Shown here: piece after piece, positions 47,122 to 55,944 of the stretch
Layout: every line of letters starts with the position of its first letter
Position numbering within the stretch: position 1 is the first letter of the stretch
Source of the DNA: Glaciozyma antarctica PI12
Taxonomy: Eukaryota > Basidiomycota > Microbotryomycetes > Kriegeriales > Camptobasidiaceae
Length of the DNA stretch: 64,000 nucleotides
Assembly (NCBI GenBank): GCA_002917775.1
Contig: KZ627161.1
Location: forward strand, 1,894,432-1,958,431
Direction: 5' to 3'
Position numbers and translations under genes: made by a program
Notes under the pieces: model-generated
Seen by the model: the letters and a program-made list of their open reading frames with translations, nothing else
The model's database searches: none
Told to the model about the DNA's origin: nothing

Positions 47122-50100
47122 ATGGGAGTCCCAGCCTTGTTCCGATGGCTCTCCAAGAAGTACCCCAAGATTGTGCTACCCGTGAGTTCTCCATAGTTCG
47201 TGGCTTCAGAGCTGAGCTGACGCCCGCCACTCCTCTAGGTCATCGAGGATCTTCCGGTCAGCATCCCTGGACCTGATGGAACCACCGAGGAGATCGTAAG
47301 TAGCGATCCTGATGCCTGTGCTGGAGCTTCCGCGCTTGCAAGCTGGACGGTGGCGCGGCGGAAGCTGGAGACGAGGTGCTGACCATCCTTCTTCTCCCTC
47401 ACAGCCTGTCGATACCACCGGCCCCAATCCGAATGGCGAAGAGTTTGACAACCTGTATCTCGACATGAACGGTATCGTTCATCCCTGTACCCACCCCGAG
47501 GGCAAGGTAAGCTCTCTCTCTCCACCTCCCCGCCGACCCTTCGCTAAGCAAGCTTCCAACACCACGCAGCCCGCACCTAAAAACGAGGAGGAGATGATGA
47601 ACGAGATCTTCCTCTACACCGACCGAGTCGTCTCGATGGTCCGCCCGCGCAAGCTCCTCGTCATGGCTATCGACGGAGTCGCTCCTCGCGCCAAGATGAA
47701 CCAGCAGCGAAGCAGGCGGTTCAGGAGTGCGCAGGAGGCCAAGACGAAGGAGGAGGATAGGATTGCGGCTATTGCGGAGTGGGAAGGTGCGTGGAACTTT
47801 CTGGGGAAGGTGTGGAGGGAGGCTGATTGCGCGTCTTGGGGGAGCAGCTATGGGCAAGGACGTCTCGGACGAGTTTAGGAACGAGAAGGGATGGGATCAG
47901 AACGCCATTACGCCGGGAACGCCTTTCATGGACCTCCTCGCCAAGTCGCTGCGCTACTGGGTCGCGAAGAAGCTGAACGAGGACCCCGGATGGGCAGGAG
48001 TGCGTCTCCTTTCCGTGTTTGGCGTGCGAACGCAAGCTAACGAATCAACGATGAACAGCTCCAAGTCATCATCTCTGACGCGTCTGTTCCTGGAGAAGGA
48101 GAGCACAAGATCATGGACTTCATTCGTCGTCAACGCTCGCACGCCTCGCACGACCCCAACACGAAGCACGTTATATACGGACTCGACGCAGATCTTATCA
48201 TGCTGTCGCTCGCGACTCACGAGCCTCACTTCCGCGTCCTGCGGGAGGACGTGTTCGCGCAGGACAAAAAGGGACGCGGCTGCCACACGTGCGGACAGAT
48301 GGGTCACCACTCGAGCCAGTGCAAGGGTGCGTTGGCGTGCGCTGTAGTTGTGAGATCTGAGGAGCTAATGCATGACCGAGCAGGCAAGCCGAAGGAGAAG
48401 CAAGGCGAGGCCGACCTCGTCCAGAAGCCGACCCCTCACAAGCCCTTCATCTTCCTCGACGTTGCCATCCTCCGCGAGTACCTCGCTGTCGAACTCTCAG
48501 CACCTATCCACGCCTTCCCCTTCGACCTCGAGCGCGCCATCGACGATTGGGTCTTCCTGATCTTCTTCGTCGGGAACGATTTCCTGCCGCATCTCCCCTC
48601 GCTCGAAATTCGCGAAGGTGCGATCGACACGCTCATGAACATCTGGAAGTCGAGCTTGGAGCGCATGGGAGGTTACCTCGCTGAGCACGGCAAGGTCAAC
48701 CTCGCGAGGGCTCAGCTCATCCTCGAGGGACTCGCATCAAGGGAAGACGAGATCTTCCGCAAGCGTCGCGAAGGTGCGTTCCCCACTGTATTCGCTCTCA
48801 CAAAGCATCGCTGACGAGCCTTTCAATTTCAGCTGAAGAGCGTCAAGACCGCACCGACAAGCGCCGTCGCATCGACGCCGAGAACCGTCAAGGCGGCACG
48901 CACATGCAGAACGGCCACGACTACGTCCCCGTCAAGCCCACTCCCGCGCGCCCAGCTCTTCCCCCAGCCTCCTACGCTCTTCCGAACGACTCGACCCTCC
49001 CTCCCGGCCCGTCGTCCCTCCCCGCTCGACCCGCCTGGGTCGTCCCTCCCGTCATCGAGGAGCTCAAGCCCGACATTGCTGCTATGGTCGGGAGCAACTC
49101 GAGTATCGTCGCGAACCGGAAGGCGATCCGAATGGCGAACCTCTCGGCTGCGGAGATGATCAAGGCCGAGTTGGCGGGAGGCGTGGCGGTGGATACGACG
49201 GCTGTCAAGAAGAACCTCTCGGCGGCCGAGTTGCTGAAGAAGGAATTTGCGGGGGAGAGCGAGGATACGACGATGGGGGAACCGGAGAAGATTGTTGAGA
49301 TTGTCGAGGAGGCGATGGAGGCGGTTCCTGAGCCTGCGGTCGAGGTTGATGAGACGATGGGAGTTGACGGAGAGTCGAGGGGGCACAAGAGGAAGGCGGA
49401 CGAGGTGGAGGAGGAGAAGGTCGAGGAGGAGGAGGACGAGGATGAGGAAGCGGTCGACGCGTTCCTCGCTGCGTCGCTGCTGCCTCCCGTCGTCGTTCCT
49501 GGAATTCAGGTACCGGCGCCGCTCAAGCTCATGGGCAACAACGTTGTTGAGCAGGAGGATACGGTTCAGTGAGTCTTGTCTTCGCGTTGGGAGCGCGATT
49601 GCTGACTGACGTTCGTGCGTTCGCAGACTATGGGAGCCTGGGTACAAAGAGCGTTACTACCGACAAAAGTTCGGCATCGAGCTCAGCGATACCGAGTTCC
49701 GTCGATCGTGCGTCCTCTCCAGCATGCGAGGATTGAGCTTCTGCTGACCCGCAATTCCTGTGCAGGCTCGTCAAGTCCTACGTCGAAGGTCTTTGCTGGG
49801 TTCTCGAGTACTACTTCCAGGGCACGCCTTCGTGGCAGTGGTATTACCCTCACCACTTCTCGCCCTTCGCCTCCGACTTTACGGATCTCGCCACTCTCGA
49901 CATCAAGTTCGAAATCGGAGCGCCGTTCCGTCCCTACGAGCAGCTCATGGGTGTGTTCCCCGCAGCCAGGTGCGTTCTCCAGCCCTTCGTTCCACATTCC
50001 GTGGCTAACCTCTCGCACGCTCGCAGTCGATTCGCGCTCCCCGAGCCCTTCCACCCTCTCATGACCGACGAGGAGTCACCCATCATCGACTTTTACCCCG

Positions 50101-51290
50101 AGGAGTTCGACGTCGACATGAACGGCAAGAAGATGCTCTGGCAGGGAGTCGCTCTCCTCCCCTTCATCGACCCTGGACGACTTCTCGAAGCGATGGCGAC
50201 CAAGTACGGCGACCTTTCCGATGCTGAGATCAAGCGCAACACCCTCGGATCCGACACGCTCTTCGTTAGTCAGGACCATCCCTTGTACGATTACCTCGAG
50301 GGCCTTTACACGAAGCGCAAGATCAAGGAAGTGCGTTCTTCGTTTCGCGTTCTCCCTCTCCGTCGGTGCGCGTACTGACTACTTTGCTCGCAGCCCGTCG
50401 ACCTCGACACGAAGCGCAGCAAGGGTATCGCTGGCGCCGTCCTCCCCGACCCCGTCTGCATCCCCGGCTCGACCTTCGACTCTCCGCTCCCCTCCCTCCC
50501 CGACATTCCTACCGACAAGTCCATCTCAGCCTCTTTCTCTTTCCCTCCTCAGCGCTTCCCCCATCGCTCCATGCTCCTCCCCGGCGTCAAGCACGACCGA
50601 CCCGTTCTGAGCTCTTACGATAAGGACGGCGTGCGGCGAGGCGGGACTGGAGGGTACGAGAGCAACGGCTTCCACGCGCAGCGAGGTCGGGAGCAAAGTG
50701 GACCGGGATTCGCGAAGCTTGATCGCGGGAGTCGAGGTGGAGGAGGTGGTGGAGGAGGAGGCGGAGGGAGGCAGAGCTACCCTCCCCCTCAGAGCGGTGG
50801 AGGTGGAGGAGGAAGCTACGGCGGGCAGAGCAGTTACGGCGCGCCTCAGCAGCAGCAGGGAGGGCAACAGGGAGGACGCGACCCGTACGGCGGTTACGAC
50901 TCGCGGCGCGGAGGAGGAGGAGGAGGAGGGCAGGGAGGCTACGGTGGCGCGTCCTACGGTGGTCACCAGCAGCAGGCGCAGCAACCTTCGTACGGCGGAT
51001 ACGCACCAGCTCAAGGCGGTTACCGACCACCACCGATGACTGGCGGAGGGTACCAACCTCCTCCCGCTCCTCAGCAAGGCGGCTACGGCGGGTACGGTCA
51101 AGGCGCGCCTCCTCCTCCTCGCTACGGAGCTCCTCCGCCCGCGGCGTACGGCGCCCCTCCTCCTCCTGCTCCGGCGTACCAGGGCTACGGAGGGTATGGA
51201 GGGAACGGGCAGGGAGCACCACCACCGGCGTGGCAGCAGGGTGGGAGGGGAGGAGGACAAACGGGGAGGGGCCAGGAGCGACGGTACTGA
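47122..51290 (+). CDS. RAT1: 5'-3' exoribonuclease 2 (Rat1/Xrn2) with long glycine-rich tail
   Basis: Nuclear 5'-3' exoribonuclease that ends RNA polymerase II transcription and trims pre-rRNA and snoRNAs. Start ATG at 47122 ([20 protein letters not shown]). Catalytic landmarks: [74 protein letters not shown], a CCHC zinc knuckle ([14 protein letters not shown]), [48 protein letters not shown], and [21 protein letters not shown] charged linker with repeated NLSAAE(M/L)(I/L)K units lies at about 49130-49250. The last ~230 residues (50600-51290) are Gly/Tyr/Gln/Pro-rich with RGG-type ends ([16 protein letters not shown]), far more extended than I expect for the family. At least ten short introns. 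No frame break in the conserved part. Confidence 0.95.
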
Positions 51291-51659: not shown

Positions 51660-54600
51660 ATGGGCAGGGACCTCAGCTGTCGCGGTTGCTCCACGGAATG
51701 GGGTGACAGCTCTCGGGGCCCTCGGGCGCCTTCTCACCTTCTCAGAGCTGATAGCAGCGGTCTGACCTTCCCCGTTCCCCCGCACAGAGCTTTGAACCGT
51801 CGAGGATCAATCGCCCAGCTAGCTCGTCTCCCCCCTCCCTCACCAGCACCGACCACTCCGTTCATCTCCACCCTGGCGCCTCTCCGCTCCAACGACTCGT
51901 CCAAGCACCGTAGATCAAGAAGCGCCTCCAGGGATTCATTCTCTTCACTCCCACTCCCCGCCTTCCCACCCACAGCTCCCGCCGATCTCTACTTCACTCC
52001 TTCGTCCCTCCCGCCTTCCGCCTCTCCGCCAGGCTACTACGATTACGCGGCACCGCACGAGCCACCGCCACCGCGATCAAGATCCGTGCCGCATCTCCCT
52101 GGACTCTCCTTCACCAGCATCACCACTCCTTCCAGCCGCACCCCTCCATGGCAAGGCCGTAGCGAGGAGCCTCCCTTTCCACGCGACTACGAACTCCGCC
52201 GCGCGTCCGTCTCGTCTCAAACGATCAACGACCTTATTGAGCAACCTCACGAGCACGGCGTGTACGACGACGGGGAGCAGGGATCAGGAGACGAGCCGCT
52301 GGAGATTAGGACGCGTAGAACCTCTGCTGCGCCGCCGCCCGCGTTCCAGCAGGTCACGAGGAGAAGCTCGAGCTCTGCCTTGTCTCGAAGGACTGGAACG
52401 GTGCCGCAGATGCCCCGCACAGGAGCCGTTTCGGGCGGAGGAGATGCAGATTCGACCTTTTCGGTGCGTCTTCCTCGAGGGTTGTTGTGGAAGGAGCTGG
52501 GGCTGGGAGCTGACTGGGAGCGTCGTTGCAGCCAAGCTTAGGTACAACGTATCGTCCTCCACCACCACTACCCACATCTCGCCTCTGGTCCTTCCTCTTC
52601 CTCTTCCTCCAATCCCTCTCCGTCCTCCCCTCCCTCTTCGGATTCTTCTACTCCGCCCATCGATTCTCCTCCTATCCATTTTCCCTCTCCTTTCCTCCGC
52701 CAGCACCTGGCTTCAAGGCGGTAACGCGGTCGGCGTCTCCCAAGGCCGCAGCACGAAGCTCGACTGGTTCATCTCGGGCCTGTGGGCGCTCGCATGCGCG
52801 TACTTTAGCCATTCGCTGGCAAAGGGCTTGCTTCGTCGATGGCTCGTCTACTATTCGCTCCTGCCGACGTTCATTCGGGTCGTCAGCTTGCAGGCGATCT
52901 GCTGGCCTCTGTGCCTTACGACCCATCGCGTGCTGTCGTTCGATCAGCCCGTCGCAGCTTGGCTCATCTGCGCCACGACGGCCGCCATCTCTGTGAGTTC
53001 CTGCTTTCTTTCTTCGCAAGAAACCGTCGCTCATTCGTCTTTTCCCGCAGAACGTCGTCCAAATCTGGGTCACGAGCAACATCGTCGAGCGGAAGGACCG
53101 CCGCGGAGACCAACGCTGGCGCTTCCTCTCCTTCCTCGTCTCCGCCGTCGTCGGCCCCGGCGTTCGAACGGAAAAGTACCGCAAAAGCGAGCGAGCTCTG
53201 AGCTGGAAGAGGGTGCTCTGGGGGACCGTCGTCCCCTTTGCGATCCTCGGCTGGATCACGACGGGCGCGCTGCTGTGGCAGCAGTTCGTGGCGCGGTACA
53301 AGGGCGGAGGAGGAGTCGGTATGGGGAGTGCGAGGCTGAATCACGTCGTTCGAGCGCACGCGGGAGGGATGAGCTTGACGGGGCTCGACAGCAAGGCCAA
53401 CGTTCGCATCGTCATGCTCGTTACTTCGTCCTGGACCGACCGATCTCTCGCCAACCGCAACACCTTCCGCCAATCCTCCGTCCTCATGATCCCTCCCTCC
53501 TCCTCCGCCGTCTCCATCACCTACCGCTTCCTCCTCGGCGCTGCCCCCTCCCCTCAGACCGCCGCTCGCGTCGGGCCTCTGATCGAAGCCGAGGCTGCAG
53601 AGTTCGGCGATATGCTCCTCGTACCCGCGCACGACGGCTACGGCGACCTGAGCAAGAAGATCTACGAGGGATGGAAGTGGGCGGCGGCGCTGGATGTCGA
53701 CTACGTTCTCAAGACGGACGACGACATGTTCCTCCGCATGGACGTGCTCGCGAAGGAGTTCAAGGAGCTCGGTCGACGGAGAGAGTACTGGCGAGGATTC
53801 GCCTACTGGTGCGTCGTTTCGAATGAAGTCCTGCGGCTCTGTGCTGACCGCTTCTCTTTGCAGGGCGATTCCAGCGATTCAGGACGCCTCGAACAAGAAC
53901 GCCGACTTTAGCTACGAGCTCATTTCACTTCCCTCGCTTTCTACCGCCGGCGCTCTCCACATTCTCTCCCACGACCTCATCAGCCTCATCGCCCCTCCCA
54001 ACACCTCCCGCCTCTTCGTCAAGAACGAGGACCAGAACCTCGGTCTCTGGCTCTACCCCTCCGCCGTTCGCCCAATCCACGACCGCCGCATTCAGCAAGG
54101 CCAAGTCTGCGAGAACGACATGATCGCCAAGCACTTCGGCGGGCAGTACAAGGAGGAAGGCGGGATCGGTCCGCTCGAGATGTACGCGAACGTCGTCAGC
54201 GGCCGCAAGATGTGCGAAGGGTTCCTCCAGCGGTGGTGCGGCGTCTGCTACCCGTCCTGCAGAAGTCGCGACAACCATTGGAGGGACTGGGGCTTCGCGT
54301 GCGACGGGATCAAGGGCGCGACGCTGTCGAGTCGACCCGCAGCAGTCGCGACGCTCGAAGCCCCCGTCAAGTCTCCGCCGGAAGCTCTCGTCATGGGCAG
54401 CGCCGACGACCCCTGGGTCATCCCCGGCCTACTCTCCCAGCATACCTCCCCCTTCTCCTCGTCCGCCGACTGGCGACTCCTCCACATGCTCTGCTGGACG
54501 ACGGGCGCCGAGACGTTCCAGGAACGACACTACCAAGCGCTCGAGACGATCTGGGCGCATGAACCTCGGGCGGTCCTCTTCATGATGTCGACCTCCCTCC

Positions 54601-55944
54601 CCCTCGACTTCTTCGACACGTACACTCAGCATGGCTATGCGATTCACGTCGTTAGGATCGGTGGGCCGGAGCTGCTCGAGCGTGAATGGTACCTCGGGCC
54701 TCAGAGTCGGAAGTGGCTTCTCGAGTGGGATCGCTGGTCGCTAGGCGTCAACTTGTGAGCCGTTCTCGCTATTTCCGGCCTGAGAAGCGCTCGCTGACGC
54801 TGCCGTTCCTTCAGCTACTCTCATCTCACCGACTACCTTCGCTACCTCTTCCTCTTCAAGTACGGCGGTACCTGTGAGTCGGCTTGACGAGCTGCGAAGC
54901 TTTGGAACGCTTTCTGACGCATCCTACTCTCGCAGACCTCGACATGGACGCTCCTTGGGTTCGTTCTCCTCCCGACTCGAACCTCGAATTCATCGGCGCC
55001 GACTACGCTACGCTCGCTAGCGACCTCGACTGGACCCTCGACGAGGACGGCATGTACCTCGCGCCGGGCGTCATGCGCTTCCGCAAAGGCTGGAACCTCT
55101 TCCGCGACATCATGGAGCAGGCGTTCGCGGTTACGACCTACCGAGTCGATTGCTTCAACTGCGTCGGCCCGCGTGCGATCACGCTCGGCGTCAAGTCGAA
55201 CCGCCGCCTCCTCGAACTCGCAGGCTTCACCATCCTCCCCAGCCATGTCCTCTACCCCAAGAACTGGATCACCTCGCACGAACTCGTCAAGGCTCTCCCA
55301 TCGGGCGAGGGCAAGTCGGAACTCGCCAAGATCGTCGAAGGGTCCTGGTCGATCCATCTTTTCGGCAAGATGACGAACCACCTTCGGATTCAGAAGGGGA
55401 GCATCGTCGACGAGGCGTTCGAGACGTTCTCCCTCAAGATTCCTCGTCCAGTCGGATTCCTCTCGTCGGCGGACCAAGAGCTCGGAAACGGCGCCGACCT
55501 CGGGCAAGGCCTTGAGCTTCGCCTGCCGTCGACCTACACCTTCCGCTCGCGTCTCGCACTGGCGACGCTCGAGGTTCCCGAGCTCGACTCGCTGGGATCC
55601 GTCGATGGTCGTTTCGACGGCTTGGACCTCATCTTCGTGCCCAAGCAGCCGAGCAGCCGAAGGTATCGCGCGCGACGATATTTGTCGAGACGACGAAGGG
55701 AGGAAGGATCGCATGGAGCGGCACGTCGGGACGGCCTGGAGGACGGTCAGGGACGGGCGATGGAGAGGTGGGAGGTGGGGCGGAGGTTAGAGTGGTGATT
55801 GAGGAGGCGACGGTCAAAGACGTTAATGCGGTGTTGGGATCGTTGGTGTACATACCTGGGACGAAGGGGAGGGACGAAGTGCTGCTGCGGGTGGTGTTTG
55901 GGGAGGAGGAAGCGCAGGGGAGGATTGTTGTCCGCTCGCAATGA
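51660..55944 (+). CDS. Multi-pass membrane protein fusing GT31-type and GT32/A4GT-type glycosyltransferase domains
   Basis: Probably a Golgi bifunctional glycosyltransferase. The N-terminus (~290 residues) is disordered Ser/Pro-rich. Several membrane helices follow (WSFLFLFLQSLSVLPSLFGF; FISGLWALACAYFSHSLA; IRVVSLQAICWPLCLTTH; VLWGTVVPFAILGWITTGAL). A GT31-like domain reads IVMLVTSSWTDRSLANRNTF, YGDLSKKIYEGWKWAAALDV, DYVLKTDDDMFLRMDVLAKE (DDD motif) and FVKNEDQNLGLWLYP (EDxxxG). Then a GT32-like domain: LYSHLTDYLRYLFLFKYGGT, YLDMDAPW (DxD) and, in the A4GT-like end, IHLFGKMTNHLRIQKGSIVD. Introns near 52462-52530, 52992-53050, 53811-53864, 54758-54814 and 54872-54933. The frame shifts near 52715, and near 55637-55680, after which a coherent tail (VETTKGGRIAWSG...RIVVRSQ) reaches TGA at 55942. 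The ATG at 51660 is the only early candidate. Substrates unknown. Confidence 0.75.

Follow-up and report, generated by a model that had tools for sequence, protein, structure and literature searches.

Eos1 of Saccharomyces cerevisiae (YNL080C) is a free-standing, multi-pass membrane protein, and the animal A4GALT-type enzymes are single-domain type II proteins. GT31 glycosyltransferases are inverting and GT32-type ones retaining enzymes, and to our knowledge neither an EOS1 nor a GT32 domain is present in B3GALT6 or B3GALT5. Here we describe a gene of the basidiomycete Glaciozyma antarctica PI12 in which EOS1, GT31 and GT32-type domains follow one another in this order, with the acidic motifs of both transferases present. 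It is a spliced gene on the plus strand of a window (the whole stretch of DNA that was analysed, 64,000 nucleotides with a G+C content of 60.6%) which corresponds to C16:1894432-1958431 of the 19.98-Mb, 18-contig assembly, and in the window sequence its start ATG is at 51660. That this is a real three-domain gene is well supported.

The closest experimental parallel that we have seen is in Cryptococcus neoformans, where the putative GT31 enzyme Ggt2 is proposed to set a beta-linked galactose and Cgm1 (GT139, with limited homology to GT32) places alpha-1,4-mannose onto the beta-galactose of the same side chain (PMC12493134, available excerpt). The likeness lies in a GT31 beta-galactose step that is paired with a GT32-related mannosylation; the differences are that these are two separate proteins, that EOS1 is not mentioned in that excerpt, and that Ggt2 is a predicted type II protein with one helix. 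In the glycosylinositol phosphorylceramide (GIPC) of Cryptococcus an alpha-1,4-mannose follows on a beta-1,6-galactose. A second GT31 protein of this fungus, Ggt1, adds the beta-1,6-galactose to a GIPC mannose, and GIPC is reported to be missing from ggt1 mutant cells; the GT-A domain of Ggt1 (residues 434–645) follows a predicted transmembrane segment (338–360), and the protein is widespread in the Basidiomycota. Either Cryptococcus pathway would predict a fusion of a beta-galactosyltransferase with an A4GT- or Cgm-like enzyme.

EOS1, GT31 and GT32-type domains in one gene

A core translation of 952 residues, which begins at 52705 and ends with the stop of frame 2 at 55798, was searched against Pfam (E up to 1), and it matches four families only: EOS1, PF01762, PF04488 and PF04572. 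The domains and their motifs are as follows.

52759..53281, plus strand: EOS1 domain (PF12326), exons 3 and 4 with the intron at 52993-53050; E = 4.3e-41
53456..54080, plus strand: GT31 domain (PF01762), exons 4 and 5 with the intron at 53809-53863; E = 3.7e-16
53711..53731, plus strand: KTDDDMF, the acidic DDD motif of GT31, aligned with KADDDSF of B3GALT6
54024..54044, plus strand: NEDQNLG, the second acidic (ED) motif of GT31, aligned with SEDVSLG of B3GALT6
54714..54970, plus strand: GT32 DxD region (PF04488), exons 5 to 7, TDYLR...YGGTYLDMD; E = 2.4e-7
55085..55414, plus strand: alpha-1,4-glycosyltransferase C-terminal region (PF04572, Gb3_synth) with IHLFGK, matched on exon 7

The EOS1 match has 141 bits (cut-off 23) and covers profile positions 2-163 of 163, that is the full length of the family, so the multi-pass anchor of this protein is EOS1. 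It therefore resembles yeast Eos1 in having a full-length EOS1 domain and differs from it in that EOS1 is here fused to two glycosyltransferases. The PF01762 match has 59.9 bits (cut-off 23) over positions 3-193 of 195, and among solved structures the GT31 half is matched best by B3GALT6 (9sp7, 3.4e-14) and B3GALT5 (1.1e-6). According to the available excerpt of PMC13161914, the B3GALT6-like GT31 subfamily treated there is absent from Dikarya; the GT31 domain of this gene, whose best match is B3GALT6, is at odds with that statement, though the limits of the subfamily may be drawn differently there.

In the GT32 half, PF04488 is matched with 31.8 bits (cut-off 23), but over profile positions 42-83 of 93 only, and YGGTYLDMD is at 54861-54949 (spliced). 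The exon 7 match to PF04572, a conserved C-terminal region of A4GALT/Gb3 synthase, has 23.0 bits, and 25.1 bits in a search of the genome, with a cut-off of 22.3, while the 952-residue protein stays below it with 20.9 bits; IHLFGK is at 55352-55369. The motif residues are spaced as D-x2-R and D-x15-DxD (D652, R655, D668 and D670), which equals the spacing of D179, R182, D195 and D197 of Cgm1 when the printed residue numbers are compared. The predicted metal-binding His follows the first Asp of the DxD by 123 residues in Cgm1 (PMC12493134, excerpt); in the G. antarctica protein the distance would be 138, provided that the IHLFGK His is the equivalent residue. The D-x2-R...GG-x-YLD-x-D motif is also found at two other GT32-type loci of the G. 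antarctica genome, L003 (C17:191257-194364) and L005 (C8:984488-987589); one frame was inspected at each of the loci L002-L006, and in those of L002, L004 and L006 the motif is either beyond the frame or not seen.

A sequence-only reading of the window had proposed one spliced gene that joins a GT31-type to a GT32/A4GT-type enzyme behind a disordered head and a multi-pass membrane anchor. The family profiles place both halves as it had proposed, the first by PF01762 together with DDD and ED motifs at matching places and the second by PF04488 and, close to its cut-off, PF04572. The head is present as a low-complexity stretch of 268 residues in exon 1 (S 16%, P 16%, R 11%), in which Pfam finds no family (E up to 1). 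The anchor is multi-pass as stated; its identity as a full-length EOS1 domain had been missed. The exons and introns of the gene are these.

51660..52463, plus strand: exon 1, start ATG and S/P/R-rich low-complexity head (268 codons); open frame, GTGCGT donor, CTGAC branch
52532..52702, plus strand: exon 2 stretch with the upstream transmembrane helix TM0; acceptor 52531 (frame 2) or 52536 (frame 1)
52992, plus strand: exon 2/3 end
53051-53808, plus strand: exon 4
53864-54754, plus strand: exon 5
54815-54873, plus strand: exon 6
54936 onward, plus strand: exon 7
52464-52531 (or -52536), 52993-53050, 53809-53863, 54755-54814 and 54874-54935, plus strand: the five introns

The introns are 55–68 nt long, with GTGCGT, GTGAGT or GTGAGC donors and CAG acceptors, and a CTGAC branch lies 16–18 nt before the end of the intron in four of the five. 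The last residue of EOS1 in the core translation (173) and the first of GT31 (232) are both in exon 4, and likewise the end of GT31 (residue 421) and the beginning of the PF04488 profile match (633) are both in exon 5. Separate genes are unlikely since both domain junctions are inside single exons; the claim of one spliced gene is confirmed. From base composition, the chance that a preset frame stays open is 3e-4 over the length of exon 4 and 8e-5 over that of exon 5. It might still be argued that two or three adjacent genes are here read as one, EOS1 being followed by a separately promoted gene for GT31, GT32 or both, given that there are three in-frame Met codons between EOS1 and GT31 (core residues 187, 203 and 218) and that the 58-residue linker between these domains would by itself be free of stops by chance with P = 0.16; the latter value places the weight of the argument on the continuous domains and not on the linker. 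This alternative was rejected, as there are no stop codons between the domains, each junction is within one exon, and the GT31 and GT32 domains on their own would be without an anchor; we consider it very improbable.

Reading frames of exon 2 and of the C-terminus

Two questions of frame are raised by this single three-domain gene, and both fall outside the EOS1, GT31 and GT32 regions that Pfam recognises. Upstream, the CAG acceptor at 52531 puts exon 2 in frame 2 with the helix FLFLFLQSLSVLPSLFGFF (hydropathy 1.89), and no convincing intron leads from there into the EOS1 frame among the eight GT/GC candidates at 52540-52760. Sixteen alternative introns preserve frame 1 without a stop, including that from the donor at 52464 to an AAG acceptor at 52536 (a 73-nt intron), with which exon 2 is continuous with EOS1 and holds the helix LRILLLRPSILLLSIFPLL (hydropathy 1.93). 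A codon-usage scan trained on nine long frames in the window (11.3 kb) favours frame 1 in windows that start at 52500-52545, frame 2 in those that start at 52560-52635 (scores up to 1.09), and then frame 1 again; these split scores leave the reading of exon 2 undecided. Both readings of the region 52464-52705 hold a hydrophobic helix, within a pyrimidine-rich stretch.

54213..54302 (core residues 466-495), plus strand: Cys-rich stretch in the GT31/GT32 interval, sequence CEGFLQRWCGVCYPSC...GFAC
55415..55944, plus strand: C-terminal extension, in frame 2 to about 55640, then perhaps in frame 1 to the TGA at 55942-55944, or else to the frame-2 stop at 55798

The sequence-only reading had ended the gene at 55944. 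Frame 1 is indeed open to there, but for this end the coding frame must shift, without explanation, from 2 to 1 near 55640-55700; otherwise it stops at 55798. The frame-2 codon-usage scores fade near 55640, and frame 1 to the TGA scores weakly. No convincing intron that would make the change was found among 28 GT candidates at 55590-55860, the least bad of which is 55663-55718 with a GTATCG donor. A CTRAY branch and a GTGAGT/GTGCGT donor are both lacking in all of these 28 candidates and in the eight upstream ones; one of the five accepted introns is likewise without CTRAY. The downstream shift may stem from a base that the assembly missed, from a true mutation or from an intron of an unusual kind. 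The frame-1 piece at 55650-55944 resembles a beta-sandwich (LGSLVYIPGTKGRDEVLLRV) by eye but has no match in Pfam (E up to 1).

If the frame changes were real mutations this would be a decaying gene. Such decay would account for the shift near 55640-55700, for which there is no good intron, and for a second change that is needed near 52700 if the CAG acceptor at 52531 is used. However, the upstream change vanishes given the acceptor at 52536, and the C-terminal one, which is outside the domains recognised, could have come from an error of assembly or an unusual intron, while all three domains are complete, with intact motifs and clean introns; we give decay a slim chance.

The Cys-rich stretch is perhaps a disulphide-bonded lumenal linker. 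The upstream neighbour of the gene, at 49740-51287, encodes an XRN-type exonuclease (PF17846, XRN_M) with a long C-terminal tail rich in Gly, Gln, Pro and Tyr, and on the other flank there is a minus-strand gene whose product has a TFIIS helical-bundle-like domain (PF08711).

Membrane topology and proposed function

A hydropathy scan with a 19-residue window calls the transmembrane helices TM2, TM3 and TM4, as well as the upstream TM0 in either reading of exon 2. It finds no hydrophobic segment beyond TM4, so the glycosyltransferase domains would be unanchored without the EOS1 helices. The basic/acidic residues number 3/0 in loop 1-2, 1/1 in loop 2-3 and 13/5 in loop 3-4, charges that would fit a lumenal position of the glycosyltransferases, given that TM0 is real.

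We think the chances about even that the product is a membrane-bound bifunctional glycosyltransferase which adds first beta-galactose and then an alpha-hexose, with EOS1 as its membrane module. In such a protein the S/P/R-rich head would be cytosolic, and the five helices TM0-TM4 would place both glycosyltransferase domains in the lumen of the endoplasmic reticulum or Golgi. The inverting GT31 domain would transfer beta-galactose from uridine diphosphate galactose, the retaining GT32-type domain would place an alpha-hexose, most likely mannose in 1->4 linkage, onto the new galactose, and EOS1 would hold the tandem beside its acceptor. The product would presumably be a capsule, wall or glycolipid glycan. 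Our first guess for the acceptor, at somewhat less than even chances, is mannosyl inositol phosphorylceramide (MIPC); a side chain of a wall or capsule heteropolysaccharide is a less probable candidate, and an N- or O-glycan is rather doubtful. The exopolysaccharide of Rhodotorula mucilaginosa is reported to contain glucose, mannose, galactose and fucose (PMC7760879, excerpt), which makes wall or capsule acceptors possible. As to the "repeating or two-step glycan" suggested by the first reading of the sequence, two steps are a reasonable idea and nothing points to a repeating polymer. Its comparison with LARGE or hyaluronan/chondroitin synthases does not survive, in that their glycosyltransferase domains are not among the four Pfam families (E up to 1) to which the matches of the 952-residue protein are confined; a LARGE- or hyaluronan-like polymerase was rejected on this ground.

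EOS1 is annotated as an N-glycosylation protein, and Pvg3 of Schizosaccharomyces pombe is, in the excerpt available, a GT31 protein that acts in the formation of the pyruvylated beta-1,3-galactose of N-linked oligosaccharides. It is thus conceivable that the tandem adds beta-galactose and a further sugar to N-linked glycans, in the manner of Pvg3, and that EOS1 is its link to N-glycosylation. The literature on Eos1, in the parts available, names N-glycosylation and tolerance of oxidative stress but offers no mechanism in either, and we regard this as unlikely. Also unlikely is that a single domain is active and the other has a binding or structural role. Excerpts of the relevant reports state that recombinant Ggt2 had no detectable activity and that Pvg3 needs partners, so fungal GT31 proteins may need company, but the acidic motifs are retained in both halves of the G. 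antarctica protein.

In favour of the bifunctional enzyme, the eos1 deletion of yeast is one of 25 caspofungin-resistant mutants in a list that includes csg2 and sur1, which are concerned with MIPC synthesis (PMC4560923, excerpt).

Several points weigh against a bifunctional enzyme anchored by EOS1. TM1 (DWFISGLWALACAYFSHSLA) is under the hydropathy threshold and was drawn by eye, and basic residues prevail beyond TM4 as well (6/1), which weakens the argument from topology. When the whole 952-residue protein is used, PF04572 scores 20.9 bits (4.1e-4), under its cut-off, and the GT32 half has no significant match in the PDB (the best, an antibody, has E 0.5 and the Och1-type structure 9n3s has 0.86). 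The D-x2-R...DxD spacing that this half has in common with Cgm1 is not specific to Cgm1, being present in L003 and L005 too, and since GT32 members use several donors and linkages the 1->4 mannose is a guess. Ggt1 is depicted with an "unknown domain" beside GT31 and a single predicted transmembrane segment, and so is not clearly of the same architecture. An abstract of 2013 reportedly gave Ggt1 no predicted transmembrane segment, and at its N-terminus a domain whose function is unknown. Unlike csg2 and sur1, eos1 is absent from the eight Congo red resistant strains in the available part of PMC4560923, so its link to MIPC is slight. To these must be added the C-terminal frame change that is without explanation, the two readings of exon 2, and the fact that the tandem is a prediction from genomic sequence.

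Copy number, relatives and significance

Six-frame profile searches of the organism's own genome (about 20 Mb) found PF12326 (E up to 1) at this locus only, its two matches being two exons of this gene; PF04572 (E up to 1) and, at E up to 0.001, PF01762 were also found only here. A search of the genome with the whole protein (E up to 1) finds the gene itself alone, and does not recover L003 and L005. With PF04488, on the other hand, the five loci L002-L006 were found and this locus was missed, presumably because its motif is split by introns; the single-copy statements are therefore lower bounds, and an intron-cut GT31 gene could escape. A Fringe profile gave one match in the genome, below the cut-off (0.0247, L015), where neither the opening 200 bases nor the single frame that was read showed anything recognisable.

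A 903-residue query gave ten pattern-matching stretches in genome contigs, none of them confirmed, and none in viral contigs; these collections are free of fungi and uninformative on conservation. No EOS1-glycosyltransferase fusion was found among the matches listed in the open-licence literature, in which PF12326 and "protein EOS1" have no match; the architecture may already be listed in public databases. The Rhodotorula toruloides gene RTO4_12670 ("B3GALT1-like") is listed with the mutants that accumulate less lipid (buoyancy -0.9, fluorescence-activated cell sorting -3.1; PMC5922974, excerpt), and in R. kratochvilovae one of the three genes with the strongest down-regulation in the cold codes for a "glycosyltransferase family 31 protein" (-8.45; PMC8481953, excerpt). 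These two may be counterparts of the G. antarctica gene, if GT31 is single in those yeasts too.

The identity of the anchor changes the meaning of the find, which becomes a handle on the role of EOS1: a natural fusion to two glycosyltransferases implies that EOS1 acts next to such enzymes, and predicts their kind. We suggest only tentatively, and think it rather unlikely as a whole, that the protein is a one-chain, two-step synthase which makes alpha-hexosyl-(1->4)-beta-Gal on GIPC or a wall glycan of basidiomycetes, and that EOS1 is generally a membrane partner of GT31/GT32-type transferases, so that the free-standing Eos1 of yeast would have become detached from a GT32 enzyme, for instance one of the MIPC synthases. 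Should the tandem prove to carry out the beta-Gal/alpha-Man step in the glycolipids or wall glycans of basidiomycetes, a single gene would offer a clean genetic and biochemical test of the pathway.

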